A stretch of 56,741 bases of DNA, from IMG/VR virus record IMGVR_UViG_3300042691_019044, positions 1-56,741 of that record; one strand, 5' to 3'. The notes beneath the pieces are model-generated. The model was given only the letters and a program-made list of their open reading frames with translations, did no database searches and had not been told where the DNA came from. Source of the stretch: a virus. Shown here piece after piece: positions 1,404-31,868 of this stretch. The first letter of the stretch is position 1. Each line of letters starts with the position of its first letter. The position numbers were made by a program, and so were the translations under genes.

Positions 1404-1416
1404 AAAAATTAATAAA

Positions 1417-8857: not shown

Positions 8858-9178
8858 ATGTCAGGGTATTACAATAGATATAAGAAATTAAATAATGACG
8901 AAACGATCATATCACCACCTTTCATCAAATTAGATGAAAAGAGTACGGATACTATGATAATATACGACATTAGAAAAACCAGGTTAGATAAAGTTAGTCA
9001 GGAGTATTACGGTGTACCCTATTATTCTTGGTTAATATTAATGGCAAATCCAGAATTTGGTGGTTTAGAATGGAATATTAAAGACGGCCAAGCCGTTAGG
9101 ATACCACAACCGCTTGATGTAACCTTAAGGGAATATGAAAGAAAGTTAGTTCAACGATTAGATTACTATGGCGATTAA
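8858..9178 (+). CDS. LysM-like / gp53-type baseplate protein
   Basis: This 106-aa protein has the core DKVSQEYYGVPYYSWLILMANP (given here as DKVSQEYYGV then PYYSWLILMA; about residues 43-66), followed by GQAVRIPQP. This is the arrangement of small LysM-like baseplate proteins such as tail protein X and the N-terminal part of T4 gp53. In T4 gp53 an 'AIYGNPQLYWVLLMCN' segment plays the same part. Gp53-family proteins join baseplate wedges around the hub. The gene starts one base after the preceding stop, and its last 11 bases overlap the next gene, so the three are surely co-translated. It is shorter than T4 gp53 (about 196 aa) and lacks its C-terminal half. Assignment to a LysM-like fold is likely; the wedge role is an inference. 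Confidence 0.65.
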   Translation: MSGYYNRYKKLNNDETIISPPFIKLDEKSTDTMIIYDIRKTRLDKVSQEYYGVPYYSWLILMANPEFGGLEWNIKDGQAVRIPQPLDVTLREYERKLVQRLDYYGD

Positions 9179-15000: not shown

Positions 15001-18000
15001 ATTGAGTTAAATAAGTCGTATTTATACAGCAGAATACATCATTTAGTTTCGGTTGGTAATATTGATACAACAGACTTAGCCTTCAACAATTTTTATTTCG
15101 ATTGTGTAAAAACATTTTTTAAATATTTAAATATTAAATATACTAAAAATAATTATAAACAATTATTAAAGTTATTAAGATCCTATATAAGATATATTGG
15201 GTACCAATTAAATTACGAGTTTTTACCAAATAATGGTATAATATCACAAGAGTCATTTTTGCAAAATTATTACAATGAAGTTACTAGAGACAATACTTTT
15301 AAACAACTTCAAACAACCAGACTACAAGAAATTAATTCAACACCAGCTGATAAAACCAGAGTTGTTATTTTACCACCAATCAATCCGATTATAACTAAAG
15401 AAGAAGATCTTGAATACCCAGAACCTAGTTTCACCGAAGATAACCAATACAAGGTATCTGATTTAGAGTCAGATTGTAGTAAGTTCTTTGAACATTTTAA
15501 CACGGAAATATTTGAATCAACAGTTGGCGGTTTAAATTCATTTTTAAATAGGTTCAGTGAGATTATGAACGAAAAAACTGTACCAAACGACACCGCAACA
15601 CCATATACCACACAATCCGAAGAAGAGAATTTAAAAGATGAGATAAAAAAACGAACATATTATAATATCAAATCAATGTATGAAAAAACATCAACAAGCT
15701 TTGTTGAGGAAACTAGGAGTTCGCCAATATTCATACCGACAAAGATTGAGGATATAAGATTGCTAGAAGTTTCAGATTTAAAAAACACTAAATTATTTTA
15801 TAACTACGCGATTGACCCAGGGTATTGTGATGATAACAAAAAAGAAGACACAAACTACGATTTATATGAAATATTCAAAGTGGTTGATAGAGGTAATAAT
15901 GATATCGGTGTAAATGTTCTTGCGGATTTATCGTTCTTTTACCAAAACCTTTACGCTGATTTTGACAACAACCCAAACAAGGGTCAAGAGAACCAATATG
16001 CGTCAATGGAAAATTTAACGAATAAAAGTTTTACCAATTTATTTAGCGGTTTAGCTAGTAATAACGGATTTTTATTTCAACAAATACCAAATTACATAAA
16101 TCTTAATGGTGCTATATCAGCAACAGATAATGATGAAGAATCGATCTACGACATTGTTGATCAATTATTTGGTGTTCACACAGATACAGACTTACTTGGT
16201 ACATCAAGTAGAAATTCACAAAAATTTGGCGGATTAACTGGTTACCCTGGTTACATTTTTCAGTTAGGTACAATAGGATCTAAACTAGATACCAATGGTG
16301 GTGTTGTGCAGTCTATGAAAAATGATAATTTAAATTCATTTTGTTTGGATGTTGGGTATGATAATAATAGAGAAATTTCAGTTAAATCAGAAAATGCACC
16401 AGATGATATCAAGAAATCAAATGTGACTTGTTTTACTGTTGATTTTGGTACACAAAAACAACAAATGTTTACTAGTGTACAATTAGATACCGCTGAATTT
16501 TACGATACGGAAGAAAGTATAAGAACTTGGGTTGATATTGTAAATAATACCCAACAATCATTACAGACAACAAATCTATTTCCAATTTTAGAAAAAAGAG
16601 CGTATACATGTACAGTAACTAGTTTAGGTAACTCAACAATACAACCTTTAAGTTATTTTTATCTTAGAAACGTACCATTGTTTTATGGAACGTACTGGAT
16701 AACAAACGTGGCTCATGACATACAACCCAATACGATGGTAACCACATTCAAAGGGGCAAGACAACCGATATCATCAAAAACCGATGTTAGGAGAGAATTA
16801 TTAGCATTAATGAGAAAAAATGCGGCAAAAATAGCAGAAGAATCAGTTGCGGCAAATACAATAGTTTCAACAGAAATACCAAATACAAGTGGAAAAGTTT
16901 ATACTGATGATTCAAGTAGTGATAATCCATTTGGTGATGTTTTGCAGGGTCTTTCTAGCGATGCGACCAAATATTACAAATACGATGGAATAAATGTTAT
17001 TGGTACTTTTATCTTTAGTGTGACAAAAAGTAATGCTAGTAATGACGCAAATCTTGGGTTAATTAACGTATTATATAACTATTCAAAAGCCATGTTGGGT
17101 AATACCGAATCACCAGCTGAGATTGTTAAAAACATGAAAACAGTTGCTATTGGTATAATGAATGAAAAAGCAAATGGTGGTGATGGTAGATACAGTGGTA
17201 GCCCATTGTCATTATCTAAAGTGTTTAAAGAAAACTCATCTTATTCATTGACTGGTGAACTTGGTGGATTATTAAATAAAATTGGAGTTGAGGCTAAAAC
17301 AAATAGTGACACAACATTAAATGACTCAAAATTATTTGACGGAACCATATTTGACGTATCTGCAAAAGATGAAAGCGGTGCCGTTATAGCCGATAATAGT
17401 AATAGGGTTACATTTAAAATGGAAACCGATCAGGGTAAGAAGGGTAGTCAAATTTCCATAAGAAATGCCACATTCTTTTTTGATAATAAAGATAATAGTA
17501 TATTTGCCAATACCGAGTTATATGGTATTGGTGTTACAAATGAAAATGAAACTACGCATTCTGATGTATATGACGTGTTTAAATCACTGGGGGGTGATAG
17601 TGGTACAATACAAAAATTCGATGCCGCACCAATTAAAAAAACCACAACAGAGACACAAACAACTGGAACACCAGAACCAAAACTAAAAACTCAAGAGGAA
17701 ATTCAAGATATACTTAGCTTCCTGGATGAATGTTCACCTGGTGCCGCTCATTTCTTTTTATTTTATTCGAATGGGTCACAATCACAAGCTGATTATGAAA
17801 AATACATAAGTGATTATAATCGTGAACCAAGTGATGATGATGGGGATGATGCTTGGGATGGGGCGCCAAGAAACCCATTAACATCAAGTAGGATCTATGC
17901 CAAAGAAGCGATTTATTACGGTTTGGTTGAAGATCCAAGTACGATAACGGTAACAGATATTGGTAGCGCTGACACAATACTTGAATTTAATTTAAATGAT

Positions 18001-20118
18001 GGTAAAGGAACCGTTAGTTATGAAGATTTGGGTAGTGATGAGGGTGTAAACAAAAGATTTTACGATCAATATAAAGCATATTTTGATGGAAAACTTAAAG
18101 AGTGGAAGGATAAAAATACCACTAAGGAAACACAAACTGACACTGGTATTAATGTGCAATATTTAGGTGCGATAAGAGGGTCAACAGACGATTACAAAGT
18201 TGCATTCTTTACAGCTGATTCTGGTGGTTCGTTTGGTAAAATAAAGCTAAGTTCGAAAGCAAAAAATGCATATAAATTAGATCCAGCTGGTCAAGACCAA
18301 CTATCAAATATTTATACGCCACAAACCAATTCTGGTCAATCATCTGATGCTGTTAGATTTGCAAACGAATTAGTTAGAGTGGCTGATCAAGAAAGAGAAA
18401 AGTGGGTTGACTTAACAGAATGTGATACAAATGCACAACCTTTATTAAAACAATATTGGGCAGCTGTTAATTGGACAACATTTAGTTGCTCTGATAATCC
18501 ATGGTCGGCTGCTTTTATAAGTTATATTATTAAAACAGCAGCACCAAACCCAAATGATTTTCCTTATAGTGCGAGTCATAATGTTTATGTGAACACAATC
18601 AGGAAAACAAAAACTTCTTGGAAAGCTTATTCAAGTAAAGACACACCTATTCAAATTGGTGATATTCTTTGCTATGCCCAAGATTCAAATTACAAAGAAA
18701 TAGTTGTTCAATTAAATGATTGGGATTCTGTTGGACATTCACACTGTGATTGTGTTACAAATATTGATCAAAATAGTAAAACTGTAAATGTTATTGGTGG
18801 TAATCTTTCACAAAAAGTTACCAATGGTAATTATTCTAATGGGGCTACATTAACAATAGATAATGATGGTAAAATAGCTAATCCAACAAGAACTGTTATT
18901 TTAAGATTTGAACCAGCTGGTGACCCAGCCAATGCTAACATCGACTTGACATTATCGAGTGGATTTACTCAGTATCAAAAATATCCAAATTTAGCGGGTG
19001 TTGTATTAAAATTTGAGGGTGGTTATAACGACTATAACTATGGTAGTAATGGTAGCAAAGCATTCTTTGAGGGTAAATCACCAGAATCGGCTAGACTATT
19101 AACAAAAAAATTAACTGAACTTACAGTATCTGAGGTGTTAGAAGCCCAAAAAACTAAAGGTTTATTTGCTGTTGGTAGATATCAAATGATACCAGACACA
19201 TTAAACGGTCAGTTAAATGCGAATAAATATGGTGTAACAAAATCGGATTTATTCACACCTGAAACACAAGATAAACTTGGTATGGGATTATGGGATAAGT
19301 CTGTTGTTGATTATATAGAGGGTACGGTGTCTGATACACAACAAAATATTGAAAAAGCGGCCTATGAGATAGCTGGTGTTTGGGCTGCTGTTGGTGTACC
19401 GTATGCGGTCGGTAAAGGCCAACGCGGAGGTGGTTATCCAAAAAGAGATATTGTTAAAAACGAAAGCATGTATTCTGGTGCTGGTGTTAATAAATCTAAC
19501 GCACCAACCACAACTGAACAAGTACAGGCGGCGTTAAAGTACGAAAGAAATGGGGGTTCAGCAATATCATCAAATCCACCATCAAGTAACAACACAACAA
19601 CTGCTGGGGCTGCTTCAATTGTAATTGGCGACTCATTGTACGCATCAATACAACACGCAAATCCAAAAATAAGACAAGTAACCGATGTGGCACCACAAGT
19701 GGGTAAACATTTATCAGTGGATGGGGGTAATGGGCCAAATGCTGGTGGTAAATCGTTAATAAATCAATTAACCGCCGCTAAAGTTTATAACGATGTTAAA
19801 CACGTTGTTGTCACAATTGGCGCTAACGACCTTTGGGCAGCTAACACAGCTAAACAAAATGAAGCTATTTACTTAATTAAACAAAAATTCCCTAAAGCAA
19901 AATATTATATAATGAATGGTAATTATGGTTGGGGCGGATTAGAAGTTAAGGGTGTTAAAACTGATATTTATTGGCAAAACTTAATAAACAGTTACATTAA
20001 CGTCTTTAAAAATGCTGATTTTACCGTTGTTGGTAGTGTCACAAAAGTATTATCACATCCAGGTGCAAATGATGCTTTTTATAACACATACAAAGATACA
20101 TTAAAAACATTACCATAA
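12097..20118 (+). CDS. Giant baseplate hub protein with DUF2272/CHAP-like, lysozyme-like and SGNH-like C-terminal domains (2673 aa)
   Basis: The first ~1450 residues are structural, with no motif recognised. About residues 1457-1560 look like the end of a gpD/hub-type domain (LSYFYLRNVPLFYGTYWITN, then FKGARQP). Three enzyme-like domains follow. (1) Residues ~2085-2270 are DUF2272-like (NPWSAAFISYII, FPYSASHNVYV, GHSH); S2137 sits where CHAP enzymes have their Cys. (2) Residues ~2295-2480 are lysozyme/transglycosylase-like, with E2307 in KFEGGYNDYN and AVGRYQMIPDTL at 2358-2369. (3) Residues ~2505-2673 are SGNH-esterase-like, with block I GDS (S2513), block III GAND (N2577) and a late HPG (H2654). 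Hub-attached lysozymes open the cell wall during injection, like T4 gp5. Here several bonds could be targets, for example peptide, glycan and ester bonds of peptidoglycan or surface polysaccharide. Domain calls come from motif reading; catalytic activity is untested. A short Asp-rich loop near residue 1915 might bind Ca2+. Confidence 0.65.
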   Translation: MDFNTYLENYCKFYNYCEPNNGIINNSQFEPFFESDASVQTALNEDINYQYQNSKFFAGYRSILNTSAMPDSLCSRIDKGDNNFFPEMALMFLKSYGSSLIKETDCALNPKRLISIFNKNQELVEIPYPIALLLGGLYYFQENKLEITDQSGPQVFSRINGVKVLADGFYEKDIYQINDLIRKPGSYLSYKQAIISNKASEQMVEELTFPNVRILNRSVLSKSGPGFNNPIQAVRFNIKNGVNNNGQDEFESWNLSTFTTMPAVGYGIQNKFLNDYNKTLFGEYLNGLKTKTDEDDGKPHVLSGGFSGILKPFKTYNSNFIEFTAFYRNLCVKNVTYDINALVEELKTATKDLKKSNTNSNTLLTGYIKSFIVYSKLKAAFLAGQFGTKALLKEGIKSLCEVNNIDSAYNDSLSSSEKMCDFYYLVSHVFFTSFREQIQKSVVKNKTATPHEASLLNRLNFTNYKVSIGNGKTEDSIAYLQEETVGRSKGSPGYLLNNDPSTKEKQIDNLTNFLYKIWGIEKANLKTDNSYKNISPTSFGIFALYPSAGGFLTPNNLILSTSKQGGQDLNIFDYKTAVYTSTTWDKDAKKYVLNAAPNLYSINDEPTWNPARGVSGLDERYQVSGKVVDPLDGKEETLFSDFKSIADESTYMADPEQKRYIIHAGFDRLDFLKRSNFNNTSILKNTTRFLWFESTLIGTQLSMDSINTQEGVLEKFDFDDGVTLSIYPGENNVSYFRNITPQLISYDGLKVAIESGYINNYDFSRILDSVNVEKLEEFSTLFQDFAKLSPNNNLNTFNLNSLVKSSTILASEHIKDAFSGGKFKDPQTSIELTTDEISYMLIGNSWWNYEFTAEANISKFFNVALTQTQKKRCETVADQFCSYDITIANKSTIDSVTKLGDFQLSLHNFHSSPEVLFTNAKTYDDLKTTLKDSSVSDESFNKLIARRILFGDQYVPSYENVDSLKGEIIELNKSYLYSRIHHLVSVGNIDTTDLAFNNFYFDCVKTFFKYLNIKYTKNNYKQLLKLLRSYIRYIGYQLNYEFLPNNGIISQESFLQNYYNEVTRDNTFKQLQTTRLQEINSTPADKTRVVILPPINPIITKEEDLEYPEPSFTEDNQYKVSDLESDCSKFFEHFNTEIFESTVGGLNSFLNRFSEIMNEKTVPNDTATPYTTQSEEENLKDEIKKRTYYNIKSMYEKTSTSFVEETRSSPIFIPTKIEDIRLLEVSDLKNTKLFYNYAIDPGYCDDNKKEDTNYDLYEIFKVVDRGNNDIGVNVLADLSFFYQNLYADFDNNPNKGQENQYASMENLTNKSFTNLFSGLASNNGFLFQQIPNYINLNGAISATDNDEESIYDIVDQLFGVHTDTDLLGTSSRNSQKFGGLTGYPGYIFQLGTIGSKLDTNGGVVQSMKNDNLNSFCLDVGYDNNREISVKSENAPDDIKKSNVTCFTVDFGTQKQQMFTSVQLDTAEFYDTEESIRTWVDIVNNTQQSLQTTNLFPILEKRAYTCTVTSLGNSTIQPLSYFYLRNVPLFYGTYWITNVAHDIQPNTMVTTFKGARQPISSKTDVRRELLALMRKNAAKIAEESVAANTIVSTEIPNTSGKVYTDDSSSDNPFGDVLQGLSSDATKYYKYDGINVIGTFIFSVTKSNASNDANLGLINVLYNYSKAMLGNTESPAEIVKNMKTVAIGIMNEKANGGDGRYSGSPLSLSKVFKENSSYSLTGELGGLLNKIGVEAKTNSDTTLNDSKLFDGTIFDVSAKDESGAVIADNSNRVTFKMETDQGKKGSQISIRNATFFFDNKDNSIFANTELYGIGVTNENETTHSDVYDVFKSLGGDSGTIQKFDAAPIKKTTTETQTTGTPEPKLKTQEEIQDILSFLDECSPGAAHFFLFYSNGSQSQADYEKYISDYNREPSDDDGDDAWDGAPRNPLTSSRIYAKEAIYYGLVEDPSTITVTDIGSADTILEFNLNDGKGTVSYEDLGSDEGVNKRFYDQYKAYFDGKLKEWKDKNTTKETQTDTGINVQYLGAIRGSTDDYKVAFFTADSGGSFGKIKLSSKAKNAYKLDPAGQDQLSNIYTPQTNSGQSSDAVRFANELVRVADQEREKWVDLTECDTNAQPLLKQYWAAVNWTTFSCSDNPWSAAFISYIIKTAAPNPNDFPYSASHNVYVNTIRKTKTSWKAYSSKDTPIQIGDILCYAQDSNYKEIVVQLNDWDSVGHSHCDCVTNIDQNSKTVNVIGGNLSQKVTNGNYSNGATLTIDNDGKIANPTRTVILRFEPAGDPANANIDLTLSSGFTQYQKYPNLAGVVLKFEGGYNDYNYGSNGSKAFFEGKSPESARLLTKKLTELTVSEVLEAQKTKGLFAVGRYQMIPDTLNGQLNANKYGVTKSDLFTPETQDKLGMGLWDKSVVDYIEGTVSDTQQNIEKAAYEIAGVWAAVGVPYAVGKGQRGGGYPKRDIVKNESMYSGAGVNKSNAPTTTEQVQAALKYERNGGSAISSNPPSSNNTTTAGAASIVIGDSLYASIQHANPKIRQVTDVAPQVGKHLSVDGGNGPNAGGKSLINQLTAAKVYNDVKHVVVTIGANDLWAANTAKQNEAIYLIKQKFPKAKYYIMNGNYGWGGLEVKGVKTDIYWQNLINSYINVFKNADFTVVGSVTKVLSHPGANDAFYNTYKDTLKTLP

Positions 20119-20162: not shown

Positions 20163-20381
20163 ATGGACAGAATTGACAATAAAATAGAAGAGTTTCTTGG
20201 TAATGAACCCAAGGTTGGTGAGGAAGTTTGTGACCTTAAATCTGGCGTTTGCTATATAAAAACCGCTGACGGTTTAATTGAAAGAAAAATAATCGAAAAA
20301 AAATTAGTGGTTGAGGATGGTAGAGAACTTTTAAGAGAAGAAACACCGATTAGCCACTCAAATAGAATGTTTCTAAGATGA
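20163..20381 (+). CDS. Hypothetical 72-aa protein
   Basis: A short, charged protein with VCDLKSGVCYIKTADGLIER (residues 21-40), which has two cysteines seven residues apart, followed by an alternating Lys/Glu/Val segment that looks like beta strands. It has no membrane segment or signal peptide. It is the first gene behind a putative late promoter, and its stop overlaps the start of the next gene (ATGA), so the two are probably translationally coupled. I do not recognise the family. A small structural or assembly protein is the likeliest class from context. Confidence 0.6.
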   Translation: MDRIDNKIEEFLGNEPKVGEEVCDLKSGVCYIKTADGLIERKIIEKKLVVEDGRELLREETPISHSNRMFLR

Positions 20382-21079
20382 GTAAGAAATTAAATACCCT
20401 ATTGGAGAGCGAAATTAATCGCTTTAATGCTATTATAGCATATCAAGATAAAATGGCGATTGACGAGGTTTCTTATAGATTCTATAATGAAGCTGAAGAA
20501 GTCGCACCAGCTGAAGAGCCAATTGACGCAGCTCCAGTTGACGCCGCTGTCGATGCAACAGCTGAGGTACCAGCTGAGGAACCAATGGCAACAGAACCAA
20601 CAGACGTTGCTACGGATGCACCAGTTGATGCACCAGTGGAAGAGCCAGCTCTAGCTGAAGATGTTACTGAGGTTGATGTGACAGAATTGGTTAATAGCAC
20701 AAACGACATCAAAAGTAAGATTGAAGGTTTGGCTGGCGGTATAGAAAAAATCAACGACATTATGGGTAAAGTTTCCGAAATAGAAACAAATTTAACCAAA
20801 ATGGATGATTTAATTGGTAAAATGGAATCATTGGCAAAACAAGTTGAGCTTATGAGACCACCAACTGAAGAAGAAAGAAGAAAAGCTCTTACTCAAGATT
20901 CATACCCTTTTAATATATCGATTGATGATTACAATAAAGGTACTGGGGCTAAAACACAAACCGATTTGGAAAATTCGTCAAAAATGTCTATGTTTGATAC
21001 CATAATGAACGATTATAGTGATATGGACGTTAAAAAAAGCTTCAATATACCAACAGAAAACCCATTTAATAGACTATGA
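20378..21079 (+). CDS. Acidic low-complexity coiled-coil protein (233 aa), possible assembly/core protein
   Basis: The start overlaps the previous gene by four bases. Residues ~38-100 are Ala/Pro/Glu/Asp/Val-rich low complexity with repeated APVDA- and AEEP-like units. Residues ~105-165 form a predicted coiled coil (heptad-like Leu/Ile/Met in KSKIEGLAGGIEKINDIMGK and after). The C-terminus ends NPFNRL. There is no enzymatic motif. Acidic, helical proteins of this sort occur as prohead core or scaffold proteins in T4-like phages, so that role is possible. The evidence is composition and late-gene context only, and no family is recognised. Confidence 0.55.
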   Translation: MSKKLNTLLESEINRFNAIIAYQDKMAIDEVSYRFYNEAEEVAPAEEPIDAAPVDAAVDATAEVPAEEPMATEPTDVATDAPVDAPVEEPALAEDVTEVDVTELVNSTNDIKSKIEGLAGGIEKINDIMGKVSEIETNLTKMDDLIGKMESLAKQVELMRPPTEEERRKALTQDSYPFNISIDDYNKGTGAKTQTDLENSSKMSMFDTIMNDYSDMDVKKSFNIPTENPFNRL

Positions 21080-21360
21080 TACAAGCTGAATTATATACAG
21101 AAAAACTAACATCTGGTGGAACCCAATCGGTTGCATTACTACAAGCGGCGGATACGGGTCATACGTATTCAATACATAGTATAATTTTTTTAGGTGCTTA
21201 TGATGATGTCACCACTTTAACAGTTAACGGTACCCAATTGGTATTACCTGGGGCATTTGTTTTAAATCAGTACCCAATAAGCTCTGTTTCAGTTACAACA
21301 AGCCCACATGGTGTGCTATTGGTGGGTAAAAAAGTAAAGAGACAATTGTTCAACACGTAA
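21076..21360 (+). CDS. Hypothetical 94-aa beta-rich protein, possibly virion-associated
   Basis: The gene overlaps the previous one by four bases (ATGA). The sequence is almost entirely short beta-type segments with Gly/Thr turns (GGTQSVALLQAADTGHTYSI, TTLTVNGTQLVLPGAF). It has no cysteine, no membrane helix and a basic C-terminus (KKVKRQLF). Small all-beta proteins like this are often head-decoration or tail-accessory proteins, but nothing specific identifies it. It closes the three-gene late cluster, and the next gene (SSB) has its own promoter. Confidence 0.55.
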   Translation: MIQAELYTEKLTSGGTQSVALLQAADTGHTYSIHSIIFLGAYDDVTTLTVNGTQLVLPGAFVLNQYPISSVSVTTSPHGVLLVGKKVKRQLFNT

Positions 21361-21378
21361 ATTTTTTTTGTCAGGCAC

Positions 21379-21409
21379 TTGACTTTTTGAAAATCGTTGC
21401 CTAATATTG
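21379..21409 (+). promoter_or_regulatory. Sigma70-type promoter for the SSB gene
   Basis: TTGACT at 21379-21384 is followed after exactly 17 bases by TAATAT (21402-21407), extended to TAATATTG. The latter is one base off the Bacteroidota -7 box TAnnTTTG, with TTG 20 bases upstream. The ATG of the SSB gene is at 21438, which leaves a short AT-rich leader. A 5-bp inverted repeat (AGGCA 21373-21377 / TGCCT 21398-21402) flanks the -35 region and might be an operator. Confidence 0.65.
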
Positions 21410-21437
21410 TACCATAATAAACTTAAATTTTTTAATT

Positions 21438-22358
21438 ATGGACTTTAAAAACATCGATTGGAACAAGGCCGTTCAAAACTCACTGGCCGACTACGAAAAA
21501 TCAAAAAACTCTGCAACAACCACAGAAAAAAAAGAGGTTGACTTAACTAAGTATTTTACATTAGCATTAGGTGACAAGGAAAATTCAGGACAGCGTGTCT
21601 TCAGAATTTTACCTTTGGATACCGAGGGTAAATGGTACGACATTGTTAAATTCCACAATCTTAAGATTGGTAAAAAATGGAATAAACTGTACGATCCAGC
21701 TCAAGATGGTGAAGAATCACCACTTAATGACATGTACAAACTTTTAATCAAGGGTGATGCTGAAGATAAAAAAATCGCAAGCAATTACCGTTCACGTGAC
21801 TTCTATATTGTTAGAGGTATTGAACGTGGAAAAGAACACGAGGGAGTTAAATTCTGGAGATTCCCTAAAGTAAATGATGGTTCAGGAATCATGGATAAAA
21901 TCCAACCCATGATGAAATTCATGAACGATAAAAATCCAGGCTCTGGTGCATTCTTCAATCCTATCGCTGGAAAAGATCTTGTCATCAGTGTTGTTCGTGA
22001 CCAATCTAAAGGTTACACAAAAGTTTCACAAATCATTTTTGATGAGACATCACCAGTTAGTCAAGATCCAGCACAAATGGAACTTTGGTTAAACGACCAA
22101 CAAACTTGGAGAGATGTTTACAGAAAAAAACCTATTGAGTTTTTGAGAATTGTTGCTGAAGGTTCTGAACCTGTTTGGGATAGCGAATCAAAGCAATTTG
22201 TTGCTAGAATTGATGACGCTGGTACGCCATCATATGCACCACAATCCACAAATTATTCACAACCAGTAAGTGAACCAGTACCAACATCTTTGAATGATAC
22301 CATGACATTAACCGATGCGGAACCAATGTCGTTGGATACTGATGATCTACCGTTCTAA
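21438..22358 (+). CDS. 32: gp32-like single-stranded DNA-binding protein, no zinc motif
   Basis: This 306-aa protein aligns by eye with the core of T4 gp32. It has FRILPLDTEGKWYDIVKFHN and a strand order ending in DFYIVRGIERGKEHEGVKFWRF, matching the T4 '[23 protein letters not shown]' region. It has the typical acidic SSB tail, ending SLDTDDLPF, which in this family recruits replication partners. It coats ssDNA during replication and recombination. No cysteine occurs anywhere in the protein, so the His-Cys3 zinc site of T4 gp32 is absent. It stands alone between its own promoter and a strong terminator, directly before uvsX, so it can be made in large amounts independently of its neighbours. 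The assignment is strong from sequence plus the neighbouring UvsX and helicase. Confidence 0.85.
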   Translation: MDFKNIDWNKAVQNSLADYEKSKNSATTTEKKEVDLTKYFTLALGDKENSGQRVFRILPLDTEGKWYDIVKFHNLKIGKKWNKLYDPAQDGEESPLNDMYKLLIKGDAEDKKIASNYRSRDFYIVRGIERGKEHEGVKFWRFPKVNDGSGIMDKIQPMMKFMNDKNPGSGAFFNPIAGKDLVISVVRDQSKGYTKVSQIIFDETSPVSQDPAQMELWLNDQQTWRDVYRKKPIEFLRIVAEGSEPVWDSESKQFVARIDDAGTPSYAPQSTNYSQPVSEPVPTSLNDTMTLTDAEPMSLDTDDLPF

Positions 22359-22372
22359 TTAAACAAACATAT

Positions 22373-22415
22373 GGGCATTATAGGAGATTTTACGCTCTTA
22401 TAGTGCCCTTTTTTT
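22373..22415 (+). terminator. Rho-independent terminator after the SSB gene
   Basis: A 14-bp stem pairs GGGCATTATAGGAG (22373-22386) with CTCTTATAGTGCCC (22395-22408). All positions pair, with two G-U wobbles. The loop is 8 bases and is followed by seven T (22409-22415). This is a textbook intrinsic terminator. It separates the SSB gene from uvsX. Confidence 0.9.
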
Positions 22416-22443
22416 CACAATTAATTTTTAAAAATATATCAAT

Positions 22444-23457
22444 ATGGCAGTAAAGAAAAAAGAATTTTCTTTTGATGATCTTCAGAAGAAAATGAGTACG
22501 ACAACAAAATATAAACCAGATTTGTTTCTATCTTGCGGTGAAGCATTTTTAGAGGCATCTGGTGTACCTGGCCCTTGTATGGGTCACATTAACATGTTAC
22601 TTGGACATACCAACACGGGAAAGACAAGTGCATTAATCGCATCGTCCATTGATGCACAGAAAAAGGGAATTTTACCAATATTTTTGGTTACCGAGAAAAA
22701 ATGGAGTTTTGAACATTGCAAATTAATGGGTTTGGATTGTTACAAGGATGATCAGGGTGAGTGGAAAGGGTTTTTCTTTTATCGTGATGATTTTGAATAC
22801 GTGGAACAAATTACCGATTACATAAATTATGTATTGGATGAACAAGCTAAAGGGAATGTCCCTTACGATATTTGTTTCTTCTGGGATTCAGTTGGTTCTG
22901 TACCTTGTAAAATGACCTGGGAGGGTAAAGGTGGTAAACAACATACCGCTGGCGTTCTTGCAGAAAAGATTAACATGGGTATTAATCAAAGAATCAACAA
23001 TAGTAGAAAAGAAAACTCACAATACTTGAATGGTTTGGTTATTTGTAACCTACCTTGGGTTAAATTACCAGATTCACCAATGGGCCAACCAAAAATTAAA
23101 CCAAAAGGTGGTGAGGCTGTTTACCAAGCTGCTACATTGGTTTTCCGTTTTGGTAATGAAGCCGATGGTGGTATTTCTAAAATTGATGCCACTAAGAATG
23201 GTAGAAAGATTAATTTTGCCACAAGAACAAAAGTTACCGTTGACAAGAATCACATCAACGGACTAGGATACGCTGATTCACAAATTGTAGTTACACCACA
23301 TGGTTTTATCACAAGTGATAAACGAGATAATAAAGAAGCCTTGGAAAAGTACAAGAAAGAAACAGCTGATTACTGGGCATCAAAAATGGGTGATACAAAT
23401 TTTGAATTAGAGGAGTATGAAGTTAAACAGGCCATTGCCTACTCGGACGAAGATTAA
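22444..23457 (+). CDS. uvsX: UvsX-like RecA-family recombinase
   Basis: The protein has Walker A GHTNTGKTS at residues 54-62 and Walker B YDICFFWDS (D148) in a RecA/UvsX-type core. A GINQRINNSRKENSQYLNGL segment and VICNLPWVKLPDSP follow, in the position of the DNA-binding loop region. T4 UvsX is 391 aa; this one is 337. It forms filaments on ssDNA and drives strand invasion for recombination-dependent replication, displacing the SSB encoded just upstream. It follows the SSB terminator by 28 bases, and I see no convincing promoter there, so it may depend on read-through. Its last 41 bases overlap the next gene. Another RecA-like ATPase is the alternative, but the SSB and helicase neighbours favour UvsX. 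Confidence 0.82.
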   Translation: MAVKKKEFSFDDLQKKMSTTTKYKPDLFLSCGEAFLEASGVPGPCMGHINMLLGHTNTGKTSALIASSIDAQKKGILPIFLVTEKKWSFEHCKLMGLDCYKDDQGEWKGFFFYRDDFEYVEQITDYINYVLDEQAKGNVPYDICFFWDSVGSVPCKMTWEGKGGKQHTAGVLAEKINMGINQRINNSRKENSQYLNGLVICNLPWVKLPDSPMGQPKIKPKGGEAVYQAATLVFRFGNEADGGISKIDATKNGRKINFATRTKVTVDKNHINGLGYADSQIVVTPHGFITSDKRDNKEALEKYKKETADYWASKMGDTNFELEEYEVKQAIAYSDED

Positions 23458-24457
23458 TACGTTACTGATTGATGGTGAGGCTTTATTAAAACAGGGGTTT
23501 TATGGTGCCAAACAAGTGCAAACTAAACACGGAAGCGTTGGCACCATATTTCACTTTGTTAACACAATCAAAAAATTTTACCAAGACTTTGGTATAACTA
23601 AAGTTGTTGTTTTCTGGGAGGGTGAAAACTCAAAAGTTTACCGTCAAGGTTACTATCCATACTATAAAATGAATAGGAATGATAAGGTAACTATCGATGA
23701 ACGACACGACTTGGATAGACAAAGAATTAGGATAAAACAATATCTTGAAGAATTGTTTATAAGACAAGTTGAGATTGATGGTTGTGAGGCCGATGACGGT
23801 ATTGCTCATTACGTGAAAAATTCACCAAATGAAAATAAAATCATCTACACAAATGACAGGGATTTACTTCAGTTAATTGCACCAGACACGAAGGTGTACC
23901 TATACGGTAAAAAGGCTGTTATTAATAAAGATAACTTCAAAAATTATTTTGATTACCATTATTCGAATGTTGGTTTGATTAAAATGATTGCTGGTGACAC
24001 ATCAGATAATATATCTGGTCTTGAGGGTATAGGTGAAGAAACCGTACTTAAAATGTTTCCTGAATTAAAAAAGGGGCCAAAAGATCATGAGTGGGTTATT
24101 AACAGAGTCAATGAGTTGTTGACCGAATCTCCAGATAGTAAAAAACTTCTTACAATAAAAGAGGGTAAAACAAAATGGGGAACATACGGTACCGACTACT
24201 TTAGCGTTATGGGTAAAGTTATTAACCTAGAAACACCAAACGTAACGGAAGATTTACAAAATGCTATAACTGAAATGGTCAACGAACCATTGTCACCTGA
24301 AGGTCGTGGTGGTATAAATAAGATCATGGAAATGATGAAAGAAGATCAATTATTAAATTTTTTGCCAAAATATGATGACGGTTTCTTTGTTTTCTGGTCA
24401 ACTTTTATTACTATTATAAACAAGGAAAAAAAGATTTACGAACAAACAAAAAATTAG
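23417..24457 (+). CDS. 5'-3' exonuclease / RNase H-type FEN nuclease (T4 Rnh-like)
   Basis: This 346-aa protein shows the acidic clusters of the PolA-type 5'-nuclease family: D19 in LLIDGEALL, E124/D126/D127 in CEADDGIAHY, D147/D149 in YTNDRDLLQL, and D194/D197 in AGDTSDNISGLEGIGEET. The last is the helix-hairpin-helix with metal ligands. Such enzymes remove RNA primers and 5' flaps from lagging-strand fragments; T4 RNase H (305 aa) is the phage counterpart. The ATG at 23417 is chosen because the conserved strand begins at residue 13 and no later in-frame ATG precedes it. The gene thus overlaps uvsX by 41 bases. It has an unusual AGAGGAG purine stretch just before the start, unlike most genes here. 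Confidence in the nuclease fold is high. Confidence 0.85.
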   Translation: MKLNRPLPTRTKINTLLIDGEALLKQGFYGAKQVQTKHGSVGTIFHFVNTIKKFYQDFGITKVVVFWEGENSKVYRQGYYPYYKMNRNDKVTIDERHDLDRQRIRIKQYLEELFIRQVEIDGCEADDGIAHYVKNSPNENKIIYTNDRDLLQLIAPDTKVYLYGKKAVINKDNFKNYFDYHYSNVGLIKMIAGDTSDNISGLEGIGEETVLKMFPELKKGPKDHEWVINRVNELLTESPDSKKLLTIKEGKTKWGTYGTDYFSVMGKVINLETPNVTEDLQNAITEMVNEPLSPEGRGGINKIMEMMKEDQLLNFLPKYDDGFFVFWSTFITIINKEKKIYEQTKN

Positions 24458-24461
24458 AATT

Positions 24462-24926
24462 ATGAACACAAAAAAAGAAATTAAAAAAGAACAAAGAAAA
24501 TTTGAATTTACGATTTATCTCAACGACAATATTATTGTTCAGCGTTATTTCAACGTGATTGGATTTAATAACCGTGCAATCAATTCTTTAAACTTTAAAG
24601 ATGCGATTGATTACAATCAGTACACAATCCAACACCACATGAAAAACAAAACCTTGGATTTCATGACAGAAAACAGAAGATCTTTTTATGAAAATCCGTT
24701 GTTTGAGAAAAACGATATGAATGACAAAATGAAAATTGTTGTTAAAATGGATGATAAAGTCATAGCACATAGACAGTGGGATGCAACAATTTATCCAGTA
24801 AAAGTTAGATACACCGTTGATGTTCGTGAACACATTTATGAGATGATAACCAGAATACAGAAATGTTTATCTGAGAGAAATGACAGACTAGAAACAAAAT
24901 ATTTACAGTACGATTTAGCAGTTTAA
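24462..24926 (+). CDS. Unknown 154-aa protein in the replication cluster
   Basis: It lies four bases after the nuclease gene and four bases before the helicase gene, so it is surely co-expressed with them. Two similar beta-type segments are visible: FEFTIYLNDNIIVQRYFNV (residues ~14-32) and MKIVVKMDDKVIAHRQWDA (~90-108). This suggests an internal duplication. The C-terminus is helical and basic/acidic mixed (EMITRIQKCLSERNDRLETK). I do not recognise the family. The position would suit a helicase-loading or recombination-mediator role (T4 gp59 or UvsY analogue), but that is a guess from gene order only. Confidence 0.6.
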   Translation: MNTKKEIKKEQRKFEFTIYLNDNIIVQRYFNVIGFNNRAINSLNFKDAIDYNQYTIQHHMKNKTLDFMTENRRSFYENPLFEKNDMNDKMKIVVKMDDKVIAHRQWDATIYPVKVRYTVDVREHIYEMITRIQKCLSERNDRLETKYLQYDLAV

Positions 24927-24930
24927 TATC

Positions 24931-26361
24931 ATGATACAAAAATCTACACAATTAGAGGACTTCGGGCCAGATTTCCAATTAGATTTGTTTCATGAAATAA
25001 TAGTCGATCCAAAATTTGGTGAAACCGTAGTTGAGACATTGGATACGGTTCACTTTAAAACCGAAGCCTTTCAAAAAATAATCTCCCTGATTAAAAAGTA
25101 TTATACAAAACATAATGCTATTATAAATTTTCCAGGTTTAAGAACTGAGATTAATGTTGAAATTCCAGACCCCACATTTAAAACACAAGTTTTAGATACC
25201 CTACAAGAGGTTGAGAGCAGATCAGTTACAAATAAAAACGTACAAGATTACGTTGTTAAGTTCTGTAAAATGCAATCTCTTAAAAGTGTGATTCAAGAAA
25301 TATCTAAAAAAGTTGAAAAGGGTGTTATTGAGGATTACGACCAAATCGAAAAAAGGTTAAAGGATGCGTTGATTTTTAAGGACACTCAAGATTCTATAAC
25401 ACTTTTCCAGGATATGGAAAATGTACTTTCTGATGAGTTCAGGGATCCAATAGAATGTGGTATTAGTGGTATTGATGAAATTATGGGTGGTGGTATAGCT
25501 AGTGGTGAACTCGCTTTGGTTATTGCGCCACTTGGCGTTGGTAAAACAACCTTTTTAACAAAGGTGGCTAACCAGGCTTATCAGGATGGTAGAAATGTTT
25601 TACAAGTGTTTTTTGAGGATAAAGAAAAATCCATACAAAGAAAACATTATACACTAATAACCGATGTTCCACTTAATAAATTAGCTGACGAGGAAAGCGT
25701 TTCTTTGGTTAAATCTAGATTAGAAGCTTTTAAGAATAGAAAAGTTGATGGTCAGGAACCTAAGAATAACTTATTCCTACAAAAATTACCCGCTGATGGT
25801 GTTACAATAACAAAAATCAAAAACATCATAAAGAAATTAAATTCAAGAGGTCATAAAATTGATTTATTGGTTTTAGACTACATTGATTGTATATCACTTG
25901 AAAAAGAATATAGTTCAACCACAAATGATGAATGGGCTAGTGAGGGTAGAGTTATGCGACTTCTTGAAACAATGATTGAAGAGGTTGGTGTCGCTTGTTG
26001 GACAGCAACTCAAGGTAACCGAGCCTCAACAAGTGTTGAGGTGGTTAAAACCGAAAATATGGGTGGTTCACTTAAAAAAGCTCAGATCGCACACTTTATA
26101 ATGAGTATTGGTAAAACATTGGAACAAAAAGAAGCCAGTGTCGCAACAATCTCAATATTAAAGAATCGATTGGGTCGTGATGGTATGGTTTTCCCAAATT
26201 GCAAATTTGACAATGGTACGTTAAAGATTAATACCGATGATCAATTAACTGAAAAGGGTTTTGAAAGCCAAAAGGCTAAGGAACAAGTAGATAAACGTAA
26301 GAATCTTTACAGAGGGTTTTTAGAATCTAGGGAAAGCGAAAATAATACCGAAAATCAGTAA
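24931..26361 (+). CDS. 41: DnaB-like replicative helicase (T4 gp41-type)
   Basis: This 476-aa protein has a helical N-terminal domain (residues ~1-165) and a RecA-fold ATPase with CGISGIDEIMGGGIASGELA. Walker A is APLGVGKTT (199-207) and Walker B is LLVLDYIDC (D316). A Gln/Arg motif occurs in ACWTATQGNRAS, and late KNRLGRDG fits the arginine-finger region of the DnaB/gp41 family. Length matches T4 gp41 (475 aa). It unwinds DNA ahead of the fork as a hexamer on the lagging strand and works with primase, a candidate for which lies at the window's end. It is the last gene of the SSB-to-helicase block; a 75-base gap with promoter-like signals follows. Confidence 0.87.
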   Translation: MIQKSTQLEDFGPDFQLDLFHEIIVDPKFGETVVETLDTVHFKTEAFQKIISLIKKYYTKHNAIINFPGLRTEINVEIPDPTFKTQVLDTLQEVESRSVTNKNVQDYVVKFCKMQSLKSVIQEISKKVEKGVIEDYDQIEKRLKDALIFKDTQDSITLFQDMENVLSDEFRDPIECGISGIDEIMGGGIASGELALVIAPLGVGKTTFLTKVANQAYQDGRNVLQVFFEDKEKSIQRKHYTLITDVPLNKLADEESVSLVKSRLEAFKNRKVDGQEPKNNLFLQKLPADGVTITKIKNIIKKLNSRGHKIDLLVLDYIDCISLEKEYSSTTNDEWASEGRVMRLLETMIEEVGVACWTATQGNRASTSVEVVKTENMGGSLKKAQIAHFIMSIGKTLEQKEASVATISILKNRLGRDGMVFPNCKFDNGTLKINTDDQLTEKGFESQKAKEQVDKRKNLYRGFLESRESENNTENQ

Positions 26362-26391
26362 AATTTTTTACCAACATTAACCCCAAATAAG

Positions 26392-26410
26392 TATATTTGC
26401 AAATATTTAT
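26392..26410 (+). promoter_or_regulatory. Promoter region of nrdB with palindrome over the -7 box
   Basis: TATATTTG (26392-26399) is a perfect match to the Bacteroidota -7 box TAnnTTTG; the expected upstream TTTG is poor (only T-rich sequence near 26364-26370). A perfect 14-bp palindrome ATATTTGCAAATAT covers 26393-26406. TATTTAT (26404-26410), the core of the late motif, overlaps its right edge. The nrdB ATG is at 26437. This stretch may combine a middle promoter, an operator and a weak late promoter. Confidence 0.5.
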
Positions 26411-26436
26411 TTTAACCTAACGCAATATAAAAAAAG

Positions 26437-27384
26437 ATGAATTTAAAAAGTAACGATTTAACAAAAAGGTATTCGATTTTCCCTATAACACACCCAGATT
26501 TATGGGAGTTTTATAAAAAAGCCGAAAAACAAACCTGGGTAGCCGAGGAAGTTGACCTATCAAAGGACAAATACAATGAATTAACTGATTCTGAAAAACA
26601 ATATTTAAAAAACATTTTAGCGTTTTTTGCTATTTCAGATGGATTGGTGATCGATAATTTGGCGACAAATTTTATGGCTGAGGTTGATTTATTGGAAGCT
26701 CAATATTTTTATGGTCATCAAACATTTATTGAACAAGTACATGCTAACGGATATTCGCTTTTAATTGAATCGTATGTAAAAGATGAGAAAGAAAAACTTG
26801 ACTTATTTAATTCCATGGAAACAAGCCCATCTGTTGCGGCAAAAGCTTCTTGGGCTGAAAAATGGATAAGTCACCCATCTTTTGTACACAGATTGATCGC
26901 ATTTGCTTGCGTTGAGGGAATTTCTTTTAGTTCTGTTTTTGCTGGAGTTTTTTGGTACCGCTCAAGAAATAAAATGGAGGGTTTAGCGGGTATGAATGAA
27001 TTAATTATTCGTGACGAAACATTACATTACGAATTTGCGGTTAATTTATATAACAATTACGTTGCAAACAAATTACCAAAAGAAGAAGTGCGTGAAATTA
27101 TTTTATCTTGCTGCCAGGTGGAAGAGGTTTTTGTTAGAGAAAGTATGCCAAATGGACTTATGGGTTTAACAACAGACATGATGGTACAATATGTTAGATA
27201 TGTTGCTGATGTTGTTTTAAAGGACTTTGGTATTGAACCTGAGTTTAATATGAACAACCCTTTGGATTATATGGCAAGAATTGGTTTGTCCGCTAAAAAT
27301 AATTTCTTTGAACAAAGAATAGGGCAATATACCAGAGTGGACATCCCAACCACAACAGATGGTATTTTTGATGATGATTTTTAA
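26437..27384 (+). CDS. nrdB: Class I ribonucleotide reductase small subunit
   Basis: This 315-aa protein carries all six diiron ligands: D68, E99, H102, E160, E194 and H197. They lie in AISDG, EQVH, CVEG and RDETLH. The radical tyrosine is Y106 (VHANGYSLLIESYV), seven residues after E99 as in E. coli NrdB. The wording EEVDLSKD and HxxxYSLLI is closer to the eukaryotic-type R2 lineage, also common in Bacteroidota, than to E. coli. It generates the tyrosyl radical used by NrdA to reduce ribonucleotides, supplying dNTPs for phage replication. NrdA follows after 12 bases. The protein appears complete and active by motif. Confidence 0.95.
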   Translation: MNLKSNDLTKRYSIFPITHPDLWEFYKKAEKQTWVAEEVDLSKDKYNELTDSEKQYLKNILAFFAISDGLVIDNLATNFMAEVDLLEAQYFYGHQTFIEQVHANGYSLLIESYVKDEKEKLDLFNSMETSPSVAAKASWAEKWISHPSFVHRLIAFACVEGISFSSVFAGVFWYRSRNKMEGLAGMNELIIRDETLHYEFAVNLYNNYVANKLPKEEVREIILSCCQVEEVFVRESMPNGLMGLTTDMMVQYVRYVADVVLKDFGIEPEFNMNNPLDYMARIGLSAKNNFFEQRIGQYTRVDIPTTTDGIFDDDF

Positions 27385-27396
27385 AAAAAAATAGAG

Positions 27397-29629: not shown

Positions 29630-30046
29630 ATGAATATTAGGAAACCAACATATGGTATTAATTTTCCTTTTGCTGAGGGTATTAACGGTGATTTTATTAA
29701 ATTAACAGAAACCCCAGAGTTAGAGATTAAATCAAATTTAATACACCTTTTATTAACTAGAAAAGGCAGTAGGTATTACTTACCAGATTTCGGTACAAAC
29801 TTATATCAGTATATTTTTGAACCACTGGATGACATCACAATGGGTAAAATTGAAGATGAAATTACCGATGCTGTTGAAAAATATATACCAAATTTAACCA
29901 TAAATAAAATTATCATAAATAAATTTTATGATCAAATAGAATTTGTTGCTGATGATAAATTACAGCACACAATAAAAATAAATCTTGATTACACTGTAAA
30001 TTCAAGAACATTTCAATCGTCTGGTACGGTAACATTATTATTATAA
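29630..30046 (+). CDS. 25: gp25-like baseplate wedge protein
   Basis: This 138-aa protein has the GPW/gp25 family order. An N-terminal strand INFPFAEG is followed by the helix SNLIHLLLTRKGSRYYLPDFG, then LYQYIFEPLDD with the family's conserved EP (normally EPR). Helices and a C-terminal beta sheet complete it. T4 gp25 is 132 aa. Gp25 sits at the baseplate core, where it helps nucleate the sheath with gp6 and gp53. The gp6-like gene follows after one base, the usual order in contractile systems. This is the most secure structural call in the window. Confidence 0.88.
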   Translation: MNIRKPTYGINFPFAEGINGDFIKLTETPELEIKSNLIHLLLTRKGSRYYLPDFGTNLYQYIFEPLDDITMGKIEDEITDAVEKYIPNLTINKIIINKFYDQIEFVADDKLQHTIKINLDYTVNSRTFQSSGTVTLLL

Positions 30047-30047
30047 A

Positions 30048-31868
30048 ATGGCTAAACAAATTAATTACAGCAAACGTGACTTTTCATCGTTAAAAACTGA
30101 ACAAATAAATTTCATTAAACAGTACTATCCAAATTTAGTACAAAACTTTAATGACTCATCAATATTATCCGTATTCTTGGATTTAAATGCGGCCATTGCG
30201 GATAACTTACATTTTCATATCGATAGAGCGTTACAGGAAACTGTATTGGATTATGCACAAGAAAGACAATCTCTTTTTAATATTGCAAAAACCTATGGTT
30301 TAAAATTACCAACCAGATCAGCTAGTGTGGCTGTTTGTCAGTTTAGTGTTCAGGTACCTGTTAGAGGTGATGCTGAGGATAGACGATACCTACCATTAAT
30401 GTATGCTGGTTCTCAGTTTTTATCTGGGGATGTTAGTTTTGAATTACTTTACGATGTTGATTTTGCATCCAATTTTAATATATCTGGTAGAATTGATAGA
30501 ACCAAAGTCCCAGTATACACAAATGGAATTTTAACCGCATATAGAATCACAAAGACTGGTATTGTCGTTGCTGGTGCCACTAGAATATTTACACAAAAAA
30601 TTTCAAACACAAGATCATTTTATCAAATCACGTTACCAGAAAATAATGTATTATCTGTTGACTCAATTATACATAAAAATGGCGTGTCATTTCAAACAGT
30701 ACCCACAAATTTAGAGTTTAACTCAAACACGAATAAATGGTATGAAGTTGCATCTTTAGCTGAGGATACAATCTTTGTTGAAGACAGAACTGTTGCACCC
30801 GTAAATGGTGTTTATAAAGGGGGTTATTCAAAAGTGGATAGGCGTTTTGTTAAAGAATACACACCAAACGGATTTTGTGTATTGACATTTGGTTCTATGA
30901 CGGATCAAGGTTTGGATATATTGGATGATTTTGTGGATGCTAATACATTTGATCTTAGAAGTTTTTTAACTAACCCTGGTTTGGGGTTAGCGCCAATTAA
31001 TAATACCACTATGTACATTAAATATAGGATTGGCGGCGGTGAGGATACAAATGTTGGTGTTGGAACCATAGACACAACTGGGTTAGTATCTATGCAATTA
31101 AATGGCCCAGAACCGCAAATTAATTCAATTGTACAAGGTTCACTTACAGTTATAAACGTAACCCCAGCGATTGGTGGTGGTGATGCGCCAGGTATTGAGG
31201 AATTAAGAAATTATATATCGTATAATTTTGCGGCACAAAATAGAGCTGTTACATTACAAGATTATAAGGCTATTTTATTAGGTATGCCAGCAAAATTTGG
31301 TGTACCAACTAAAGTCAGCGTGTCACAAATCCAAAATAAAATCAATATTGGCGTTCTATCAACAGACACAAACGGTGCGTTAAGTAATGTTGTTTCGTCA
31401 ACCGTTTTAGAAAATGTAGCAAATTATTTATCTAGATATAGAATGATAAATGATTACGTTGTTGTTAAACCAGCGGATGTAATTGATTTATCTTTTGAAA
31501 TTTCTATTTTAAGTGAGGCTGGTTCACAAATAAACGCCATTGCTAATATCGCCGCTATTTTAAGAGATGAGTTTTCTAAGGACAAAATGCAATTAGGCCA
31601 AAGCTATCTTGTGGGTGATTTAATTAAAAAATTATCTCAGGTTGATGGTGTTTTAAATATAAATTATATTAAAGCATTTAATAAAGTTGGTGGAGATTAT
31701 TCATCAAGTAAATTAGATGATTCTTTATATATTAATGTTAACAGTGGTGAAATTGATATAACTGGTGGTGTTATTCGCGTGAATGCGGATCAAATTTTAC
31801 AACTAAGAACACCAGAAAAAGACATTGCTGTTATACCAACCACACAAAACTCATTATTAGGCGCTTAA
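30048..31868 (+). CDS. 6: gp6-like (Baseplate J family) wedge protein
   Basis: This 606-aa protein starts one base after the gp25-like gene. The N-terminal part (SILSVFLDLNAAIADNLHFH, residues ~44-63) and RQSLFNIAKTYGLKLP are typical of gp6/Baseplate_J proteins. The C-terminal half includes a GGDAPGIEELRNYISYNFAA segment (about 375-394) and AVTLQDYKAILLGMPA, also characteristic of this family (the AVT..DY motif). Gp6 dimers make the inner ring of the baseplate. T4 gp6 is 660 aa, so length agrees. Position beside gp25 strongly supports the call. Confidence 0.85.
   Translation: MAKQINYSKRDFSSLKTEQINFIKQYYPNLVQNFNDSSILSVFLDLNAAIADNLHFHIDRALQETVLDYAQERQSLFNIAKTYGLKLPTRSASVAVCQFSVQVPVRGDAEDRRYLPLMYAGSQFLSGDVSFELLYDVDFASNFNISGRIDRTKVPVYTNGILTAYRITKTGIVVAGATRIFTQKISNTRSFYQITLPENNVLSVDSIIHKNGVSFQTVPTNLEFNSNTNKWYEVASLAEDTIFVEDRTVAPVNGVYKGGYSKVDRRFVKEYTPNGFCVLTFGSMTDQGLDILDDFVDANTFDLRSFLTNPGLGLAPINNTTMYIKYRIGGGEDTNVGVGTIDTTGLVSMQLNGPEPQINSIVQGSLTVINVTPAIGGGDAPGIEELRNYISYNFAAQNRAVTLQDYKAILLGMPAKFGVPTKVSVSQIQNKINIGVLSTDTNGALSNVVSSTVLENVANYLSRYRMINDYVVVKPADVIDLSFEISILSEAGSQINAIANIAAILRDEFSKDKMQLGQSYLVGDLIKKLSQVDGVLNINYIKAFNKVGGDYSSSKLDDSLYINVNSGEIDITGGVIRVNADQILQLRTPEKDIAVIPTTQNSLLGA

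Follow-up and report, generated by a model that had tools for sequence, protein, structure and literature searches.

The subject of this analysis is the 3' end of a very long open reading frame (ORF) in a viral DNA of 56,741 nucleotides, positions 1 to 56,741 of the IMG/VR record IMGVR_UViG_3300042691_019044, which we call the window. This ORF runs without interruption, encodes a protein of 2673 amino acids (aa) that is probably a baseplate hub or tail-tip protein, and ends in three enzyme-like domains, namely, DUF2272, a lysozyme/transglycosylase-like domain (LyzA), and an SGNH esterase-like domain (Table 1). The original prediction had placed three hydrolase-like domains in this order at 18340-20118, where 18340 corresponds to residue 2082 and 20118 is the last base of the stop codon. 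Profile searches, a predicted fold and motifs bear this out: the first domain matches PF10030, the second matches phrog_37890, and the third has the motifs and fold of SGNH enzymes. A chance match is excluded for all three domains. In two related contigs, L115 (556-8507) and L125 (2-5959), the counterpart of the 2673-aa protein is divided between two adjacent genes at a point near residue 1120 of the window protein; either the single ORF is a fusion in the window or the gene was split in these relatives.

Table 1. Positions of the features of the window discussed in the text
Feature	Position	Strand	Remarks
Likely C-terminus of the tape measure, first ORF, truncated	3-1403		Matches PHROGs annotated unknown, endolysin or peptidase (E 8e-12 to 3e-7)
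Very large ORF, 2479 aa	1417-8856		No PHROG match
Baseplate wedge-like gene	8858..9178	+	phrog_7145, E=1.3e-7; two genes 5' of the hub-candidate gene
Hub-candidate ORF, 2673 aa	12097..20118	+	Probable baseplate hub/tail-tip protein
Most conserved core block	16414..16774	+	Candidate hub barrel domain; residues ~1440-1560, ends TTFKGARQPI
DUF2272 domain	18337..18918	+	Papain-like fold family, Ser nucleophile; S2137, H2216, N2236
Exchangeable 3' cassette, all after DUF2272	18919..20118	+	Window similarity to L004 and L001 ends here
LyzA, lysozyme/transglycosylase-like domain	18964..19566	+	Candidate catalytic E2307 (KFEGGY); motif VGRYQMIP
Small SGNH esterase-like domain	19609..20115	+	S2513, N2577, H2654 present; D2659 conserved
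Conserved 72-aa gene	20163..20378	+	Directly 3' of the cassette
Replication/nucleotide genes	20378-29550		SSB-like, UvsX-like, exonuclease, DnaB-like helicase, class I ribonucleotide reductase; between the hub-candidate and gp25/gp6 genes
gp25-like and gp6/Baseplate_J-like wedge genes	29630..31868	+	PF04965, E=1.5e-12; PF04865, E=4.7e-7; PHROG matches
Very large ORF, 2551 aa	40122-47777		No PHROG match

The Pfam family PF10030 (DUF2272) matches residues 2131-2243 with an E-value of 6.9e-16 and 59.1 bits against a curated cut-off of 27 bits, and the match to the sub-sequence has an E-value of 2.4e-17 and 63.8 bits. Residues S2137, H2216, and N2236 correspond to a papain-like site that has Ser for Cys together with His and a polar third residue (PMC10318531). 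This Ser replaces the papain-type Cys across the DUF2272 family, and catalysis by the Ser-type families is speculative (PMC10318531). The Ser-His-Asn set does not vary in alignment A14, which has sequences down to 20-30% identity, and it is kept at 20% identity in the DUF2272 protein of Caulobacter phage Ccr34. The same Ccr34 protein was found when Foldseek was run against predicted viral structures (E=9.6e-8, root-mean-square deviation 3.8).

The PHROG search assigned residues 2306-2488 to phrog_37890 (E=4e-11), and tblastn found proteins of cyanophages Syn2 and Syn19 that are 35% identical to LyzA (E=4e-17); LyzA has 445 relatives in IMG/VR. Foldseek matched this domain to viral tail lysozymes/transglycosylases, namely, a protein of Celeribacter phage P12053L (E=5e-11) and the S-CAM7 'bacteriophage lysin' (6e-11), and also to the signal-arrest-release (SAR) endolysin transglycosylase of Rhizobium phage Paso (E=1e-7). 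The candidate catalytic residue E2307 lies in the sequence FEGGY near the start of the domain and is retained in almost all of the 20-odd aligned relatives, the exceptions being L093 and L111.

The last domain gave a weak match to PF13472 (Lipase_GDSL_2) with an E-value of 0.002, which is under the curated cut-off. Its assignment as SGNH is therefore based on motifs and predicted fold without a significant family score, and it is not a canonical member. Alignment A11 shows the blocks S2513 (GDS), G2550/2551, N2577 (GxND), and H2654. These are conserved over six distinct hubs except for a gap around the Gly block of L032 and a variant Asn block in L125; the Ser and His are invariant in all relatives and the Asn-Asp is present in all except L125. 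Foldseek found a viral SGNH esterase of Clostridium phage CPS1 (E=1.7e-3, probability 1.00) and several others more weakly. For this SGNH lineage, tblastn gave no relative among GenBank phages, and the GTDB genome contigs yielded none either, so that no bacterial donor was identified.

The three domains were modeled together by AlphaFold2 (residues 2018-2673, 28 aligned sequences). The mean predicted local distance difference test (pLDDT) score was 71, with about 90 for LyzA and about 75 for most of DUF2272 and SGNH. Single matches of this model to the PDB are weak (E-values of 0.02-0.4), and a large share of the top matches are SGNH esterases. These SGNH matches, with E-values of 0.04-0.4, are weak singly yet consistent, and they include sialate O-acetylesterase and the carbohydrate acetylesterase Est24. 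No solved classical lysozyme was among the top 50 PDB fold matches of the model. Neither the DUF2272 profile nor the SGNH profile gave a meaningful match to PDB sequences, and searches of NCBIfam and PADLOC gave no significant match.

Relatives were surveyed by anchoring on the 72-aa gene 3' of the cassette and reading the domains that come after the conserved core. The DUF2272-LyzA-SGNH order of the window is repeated in the independent contig L125 (141,494 bp), while L006 and L115/L116 have DUF2272-Phage_lysozyme2-SGNH. Phage_lysozyme2-SGNH is found in L032 (320,934 bp), and in L034 another sequence is followed by LyzA-SGNH. A VanY domain (PF02557, E=6e-16 and 1e-16) takes the SGNH slot in L028, which has Phage_lysozyme2-VanY, and in L033, which has LyzA-VanY. 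DUF2272 is combined with an 'NNPGNL' endolysin-like domain in L001 and L127, with a domain of about 150 aa without family assignment in L004 (298,833 bp), L002, L003, L005, and L019, and in L026 with a domain without family assignment that is lysozyme-like by eye. The lysozyme slot therefore holds five kinds of domain, the last slot is SGNH, VanY or empty, and DUF2272 is present or absent. DUF2272 is absent from L028, L032, and L033, and SGNH is absent from L001, L004, L026, and L127. A lysozyme-type domain precedes SGNH in 6/6 distinct SGNH-bearing hubs.

Sequence comparison establishes that close relatives exchanged these C-terminal domains as cassettes while the flanking DNA remained almost unchanged. 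L001 and L004 are 99.77% identical over 3062 nucleotides upstream and 99.74% over 5082 nucleotides downstream, and the last ~180 codons between these flanks are unrelated. The ends also differ between L026 and L028, whose flanks are 93.8% and 96.3% identical, and between L127 and L115, whose flanks are 92.8% and 99.0% identical. Compared with L006, the window is 97% identical in SGNH, 95% in the DNA after it and 52% in DUF2272, and the lysozyme domains are from different families. Compared with L034, it is 66% identical in LyzA, 65% in SGNH and only 52% in the core, and compared with L125 it is 73% identical in the core and about 40% in LyzA and SGNH. The upstream joins are in the linker that directly follows DUF2272; in relatives lacking DUF2272, they are just ahead of its place. 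Chimeric metagenome assembly is a highly improbable source of the cassette differences between near-identical contigs. Several of the contigs are short, and within its own lineage the L001 version comes from a single contig, but the cassettes recur in independent contigs, which argues against chimeras: five contigs (L002-L005 and L019), which come from different metagenomes, share an identical L004 cassette, the L001-type cassette appears again in a different lineage (L127), DUF2272-LyzA-SGNH recurs in L125, and DUF2272-lysozyme2-SGNH is in L006, L115, and L116. In addition, the joins examined are in frame and at a domain linker. We infer that the exchange takes place by recombination in the conserved flanks.

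Past the hub stop codon of L004, at 11111-11150, the stretch AAATTAAAAACATTCACATAA is similar to the terminal part of the window's SGNH-type ORF, ACATTAAAAACATTACCATAA. Possibly, the L004 stretch is the scar of a replaced cassette. When the 298,833-bp L004 was searched for a LyzA/SGNH cassette elsewhere, none was found, so that this contig gave no sign of a system for switching silent cassettes.

The gene for the 2673-aa protein is encoded in a baseplate gene cluster with wedge-like genes on both sides, and a 974-aa ORF lies between it and the upstream wedge-like gene; for comparison, the gene order in T4 is 53-5. Nearly all the invariant columns of alignment A10 are inside the core block, which is kept in all relatives with pairwise identities of 49-94%. 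The DUF2272 region has a weak match (E=6.5e-4) to phrog_1259, 'baseplate hub subunit and tail lysozyme'. The gene order and this one weak PHROG match support a tail-tip protein, probably the baseplate hub. Among the neighboring genes, the ribonucleotide reductase is nearest to those of Cellulophaga and Tenacibaculum phages (37%) and the gp6-like wedge gene is nearest to that of Flavobacterium phage immuto (29%); this is consistent with a Bacteroidota host but is no proof of one. The Bacteroidota link that had been proposed earlier is supported as an affinity of the neighboring genes, and the virus is probably a large T4-like myovirus with Bacteroidota as host. Also in the tail region, a 194-aa protein encoded at 50526-51110 matches the chitin-binding-like CBM_5_12 over a short stretch (PF02839, E=1.7e-4), with a score below the cut-off.

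Based on these findings we propose, with a probability of roughly 0.55, that this is a central tail-tip protein, probably the hub, whose last ~590 residues are an envelope-penetration tool with a 3' exchange cassette. As the domain families would suggest, tail contraction would bring the tip into the periplasm. There the lysozyme-like domain, going by its family, fold and conserved Glu, would cut the glycan chains of peptidoglycan. The SGNH domain, from the logic of the slots, would strip O-acetyl groups, most likely off peptidoglycan, where they would block lysozyme; O-acetylation blocks lysozymes sterically (PMC6174289). DUF2272 may cut or bind peptide or the cell wall through its Ser-type site, and this is the least certain step. 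The lysozyme slot and the last slot, which sequence comparison shows to be traded between related phages, would be exchanged by recombination in the conserved flanks, and the exchange plausibly fits the tip to differing cell-wall chemistry of hosts.

Several observations weigh against this proposal, and they concern both the hub and the enzymes. Profile and pairwise comparisons of the core with T4 gp5 and with proteins of Mel-JY01, Flavobacterium phage immuto and cyanophages gave no link, and the core profile had no meaningful match to PDB sequences. The AlphaFold2 model of the core (residues 1120-1990, a 9-sequence alignment) had a pLDDT of 39 and was not used. Of the name 'baseplate hub' in the original prediction, the tail-module context holds, and hub identity does not follow from one weak PHROG match and negative core comparisons. 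The protein could also belong to the tail tip without being the hub, for example as a separate tail-associated lysin or a central fibre. This would agree with a core that has no sequence, profile or fold link to gp27/gp5-type hubs and with several lytic domains that match PHROGs annotated tape measure. We consider it quite unlikely, because the gene is near a baseplate wedge-like gene and 3' of the likely tape-measure C-terminus, the DUF2272 region matches a PHROG named for hub and tail lysozyme, and the strongly conserved core block stays while the C-terminus varies.

As to the enzymes, the action of all three domains is predicted from sequence and model. DUF2272 has Ser at the position of the papain-type Cys, which makes peptide cleavage uncertain. 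Among PDB sequences, the LyzA profile matched only part of one, 11mn_A, labeled '66 kDa protein' and not a classical lysozyme (E=4e-5). In SGNH the Asp of the block-V DxxH motif is not found 3 residues ahead of the His in any relative; instead, a conserved Asp (D2659 in the window) lies 5 residues past the His. The SGNH domain of L125 (residues ~1419-1586, ORF 1202-5959) has GSNG for GxND and is a natural active-site variant. The active-site residues that had been predicted are thus largely present, with the exceptions of Ser for Cys in DUF2272 and the block-V Asp in SGNH. These exceptions, the first of them a trait of the whole DUF2272 family, and the relatives in which DUF2272 or SGNH is missing, would also be expected if LyzA is the sole working enzyme and DUF2272 and/or SGNH are degenerate and serve wall binding or structure. 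This is somewhat unlikely: the Ser-His-Asn site of DUF2272 is invariant even at 20-30% identity, and in SGNH only the Asn-Asp of L125 departs from the set of Ser, His, and Asn-Asp.

The main alternative to an action of SGNH on peptidoglycan is that it deacetylates a surface polysaccharide, capsule or O-antigen, on approach, and leaves the wall to DUF2272 and LyzA. SGNH domains of phage tail spikes and fibres are polysaccharide deacetylases, for example in Acinetobacter phage Aristophanes (cited in PMC11058221), and carbohydrate and sialate O-acetylesterases are among the fold matches. However, SGNH always comes after a lysozyme-type domain and alternates with VanY, a peptidoglycan carboxypeptidase, which favors a role in peptidoglycan, and it ends a probable central tip protein and not a peripheral spike. 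We regard the surface-polysaccharide role as unlikely.

Tail fibres recombine and set the host range, and the inner wall-cutting tip is usually regarded as conserved. Here the difference between near-identical phages falls exactly on the part of the tip protein that would cut the wall. Provided that the enzymes work, phages may also be selected after adsorption by the wall chemistry, for example by O-acetylation. We offer, as a doubtful extension only, the idea that large Bacteroidota phages swap a tip cassette of the hub gene, including a phage-specific SGNH de-O-acetylase that would remove the acetyl groups in the way of lysozyme, and have done so recently, tracking host peptidoglycan chemistry. 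If true, cell-wall chemistry would be a host-range determinant under diversifying selection, like the receptors of tail fibres. The cassettes also supply muralytic domains already combined by nature, and with them the pairing of a lysozyme with a candidate phage de-O-acetylase.

Parts of this protein have counterparts in known phages. The tail proteins of cyanophages Syn19, S-CAM7, and ACG-2014d have a homologous lysozyme-like domain (32-35% identity), and in S-CAM7 the protein that contains it bears the annotation 'late control gene D' and has, after this domain, a stretch that is CHAP-like by eye. However, no DUF2272 or SGNH was found in these cyanophage proteins and the rest of each has no detectable relationship to the window protein. 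Phage Ccr34 shares the DUF2272 domain, its fold and its Ser-His-Asn site, but there it is a separate annotated protein of 232 aa and not a hub fusion. T4 gp5 likewise belongs to the tail tip and bears a lysozyme-type domain, and its gene comes directly after the wedge gene 53; the protein differs in having one enzyme domain, which is internal, and the window core has no detectable homology to it. The novelty with respect to T4 gp5 that the original prediction implied is overstated, because two enzyme-bearing hubs are already known. One is Tal (gp59) of Staphylococcus aureus phage 80alpha, a hub with a C-terminal SGNH/GDSL hydrolase domain of putative activity (PMC7048315); it has one catalytic domain directly on a gp27-like hub, and the phage is a siphovirus of a Gram-positive host. 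The other is the hub gp15 of the Anabaena myophage A-1(L), in which a lysozyme domain is joined by an endoglucanase and a peptidase domain, and these last two lysed host cells in vitro (PMC10966104). It resembles the window protein as a hub bearing three extra hydrolase-type domains, and a baseplate chain of A-1(L) (8kea_A) was the third-ranked PDB fold match of our three-domain model (E=0.036, probability 0.91). It differs in that the lysozyme and endoglucanase come before the barrel and the peptidase is last, the domains are of other types and SGNH is not among them, and cassette exchange is not described for it in the passages of PMC10966104 that were consulted. In the literature searched, the coverage of which is incomplete, we found no description of cassette exchange at the hub. 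Thus, the multi-hydrolase hub itself is already known, whereas its combinatorial cassette exchange appears to be new.

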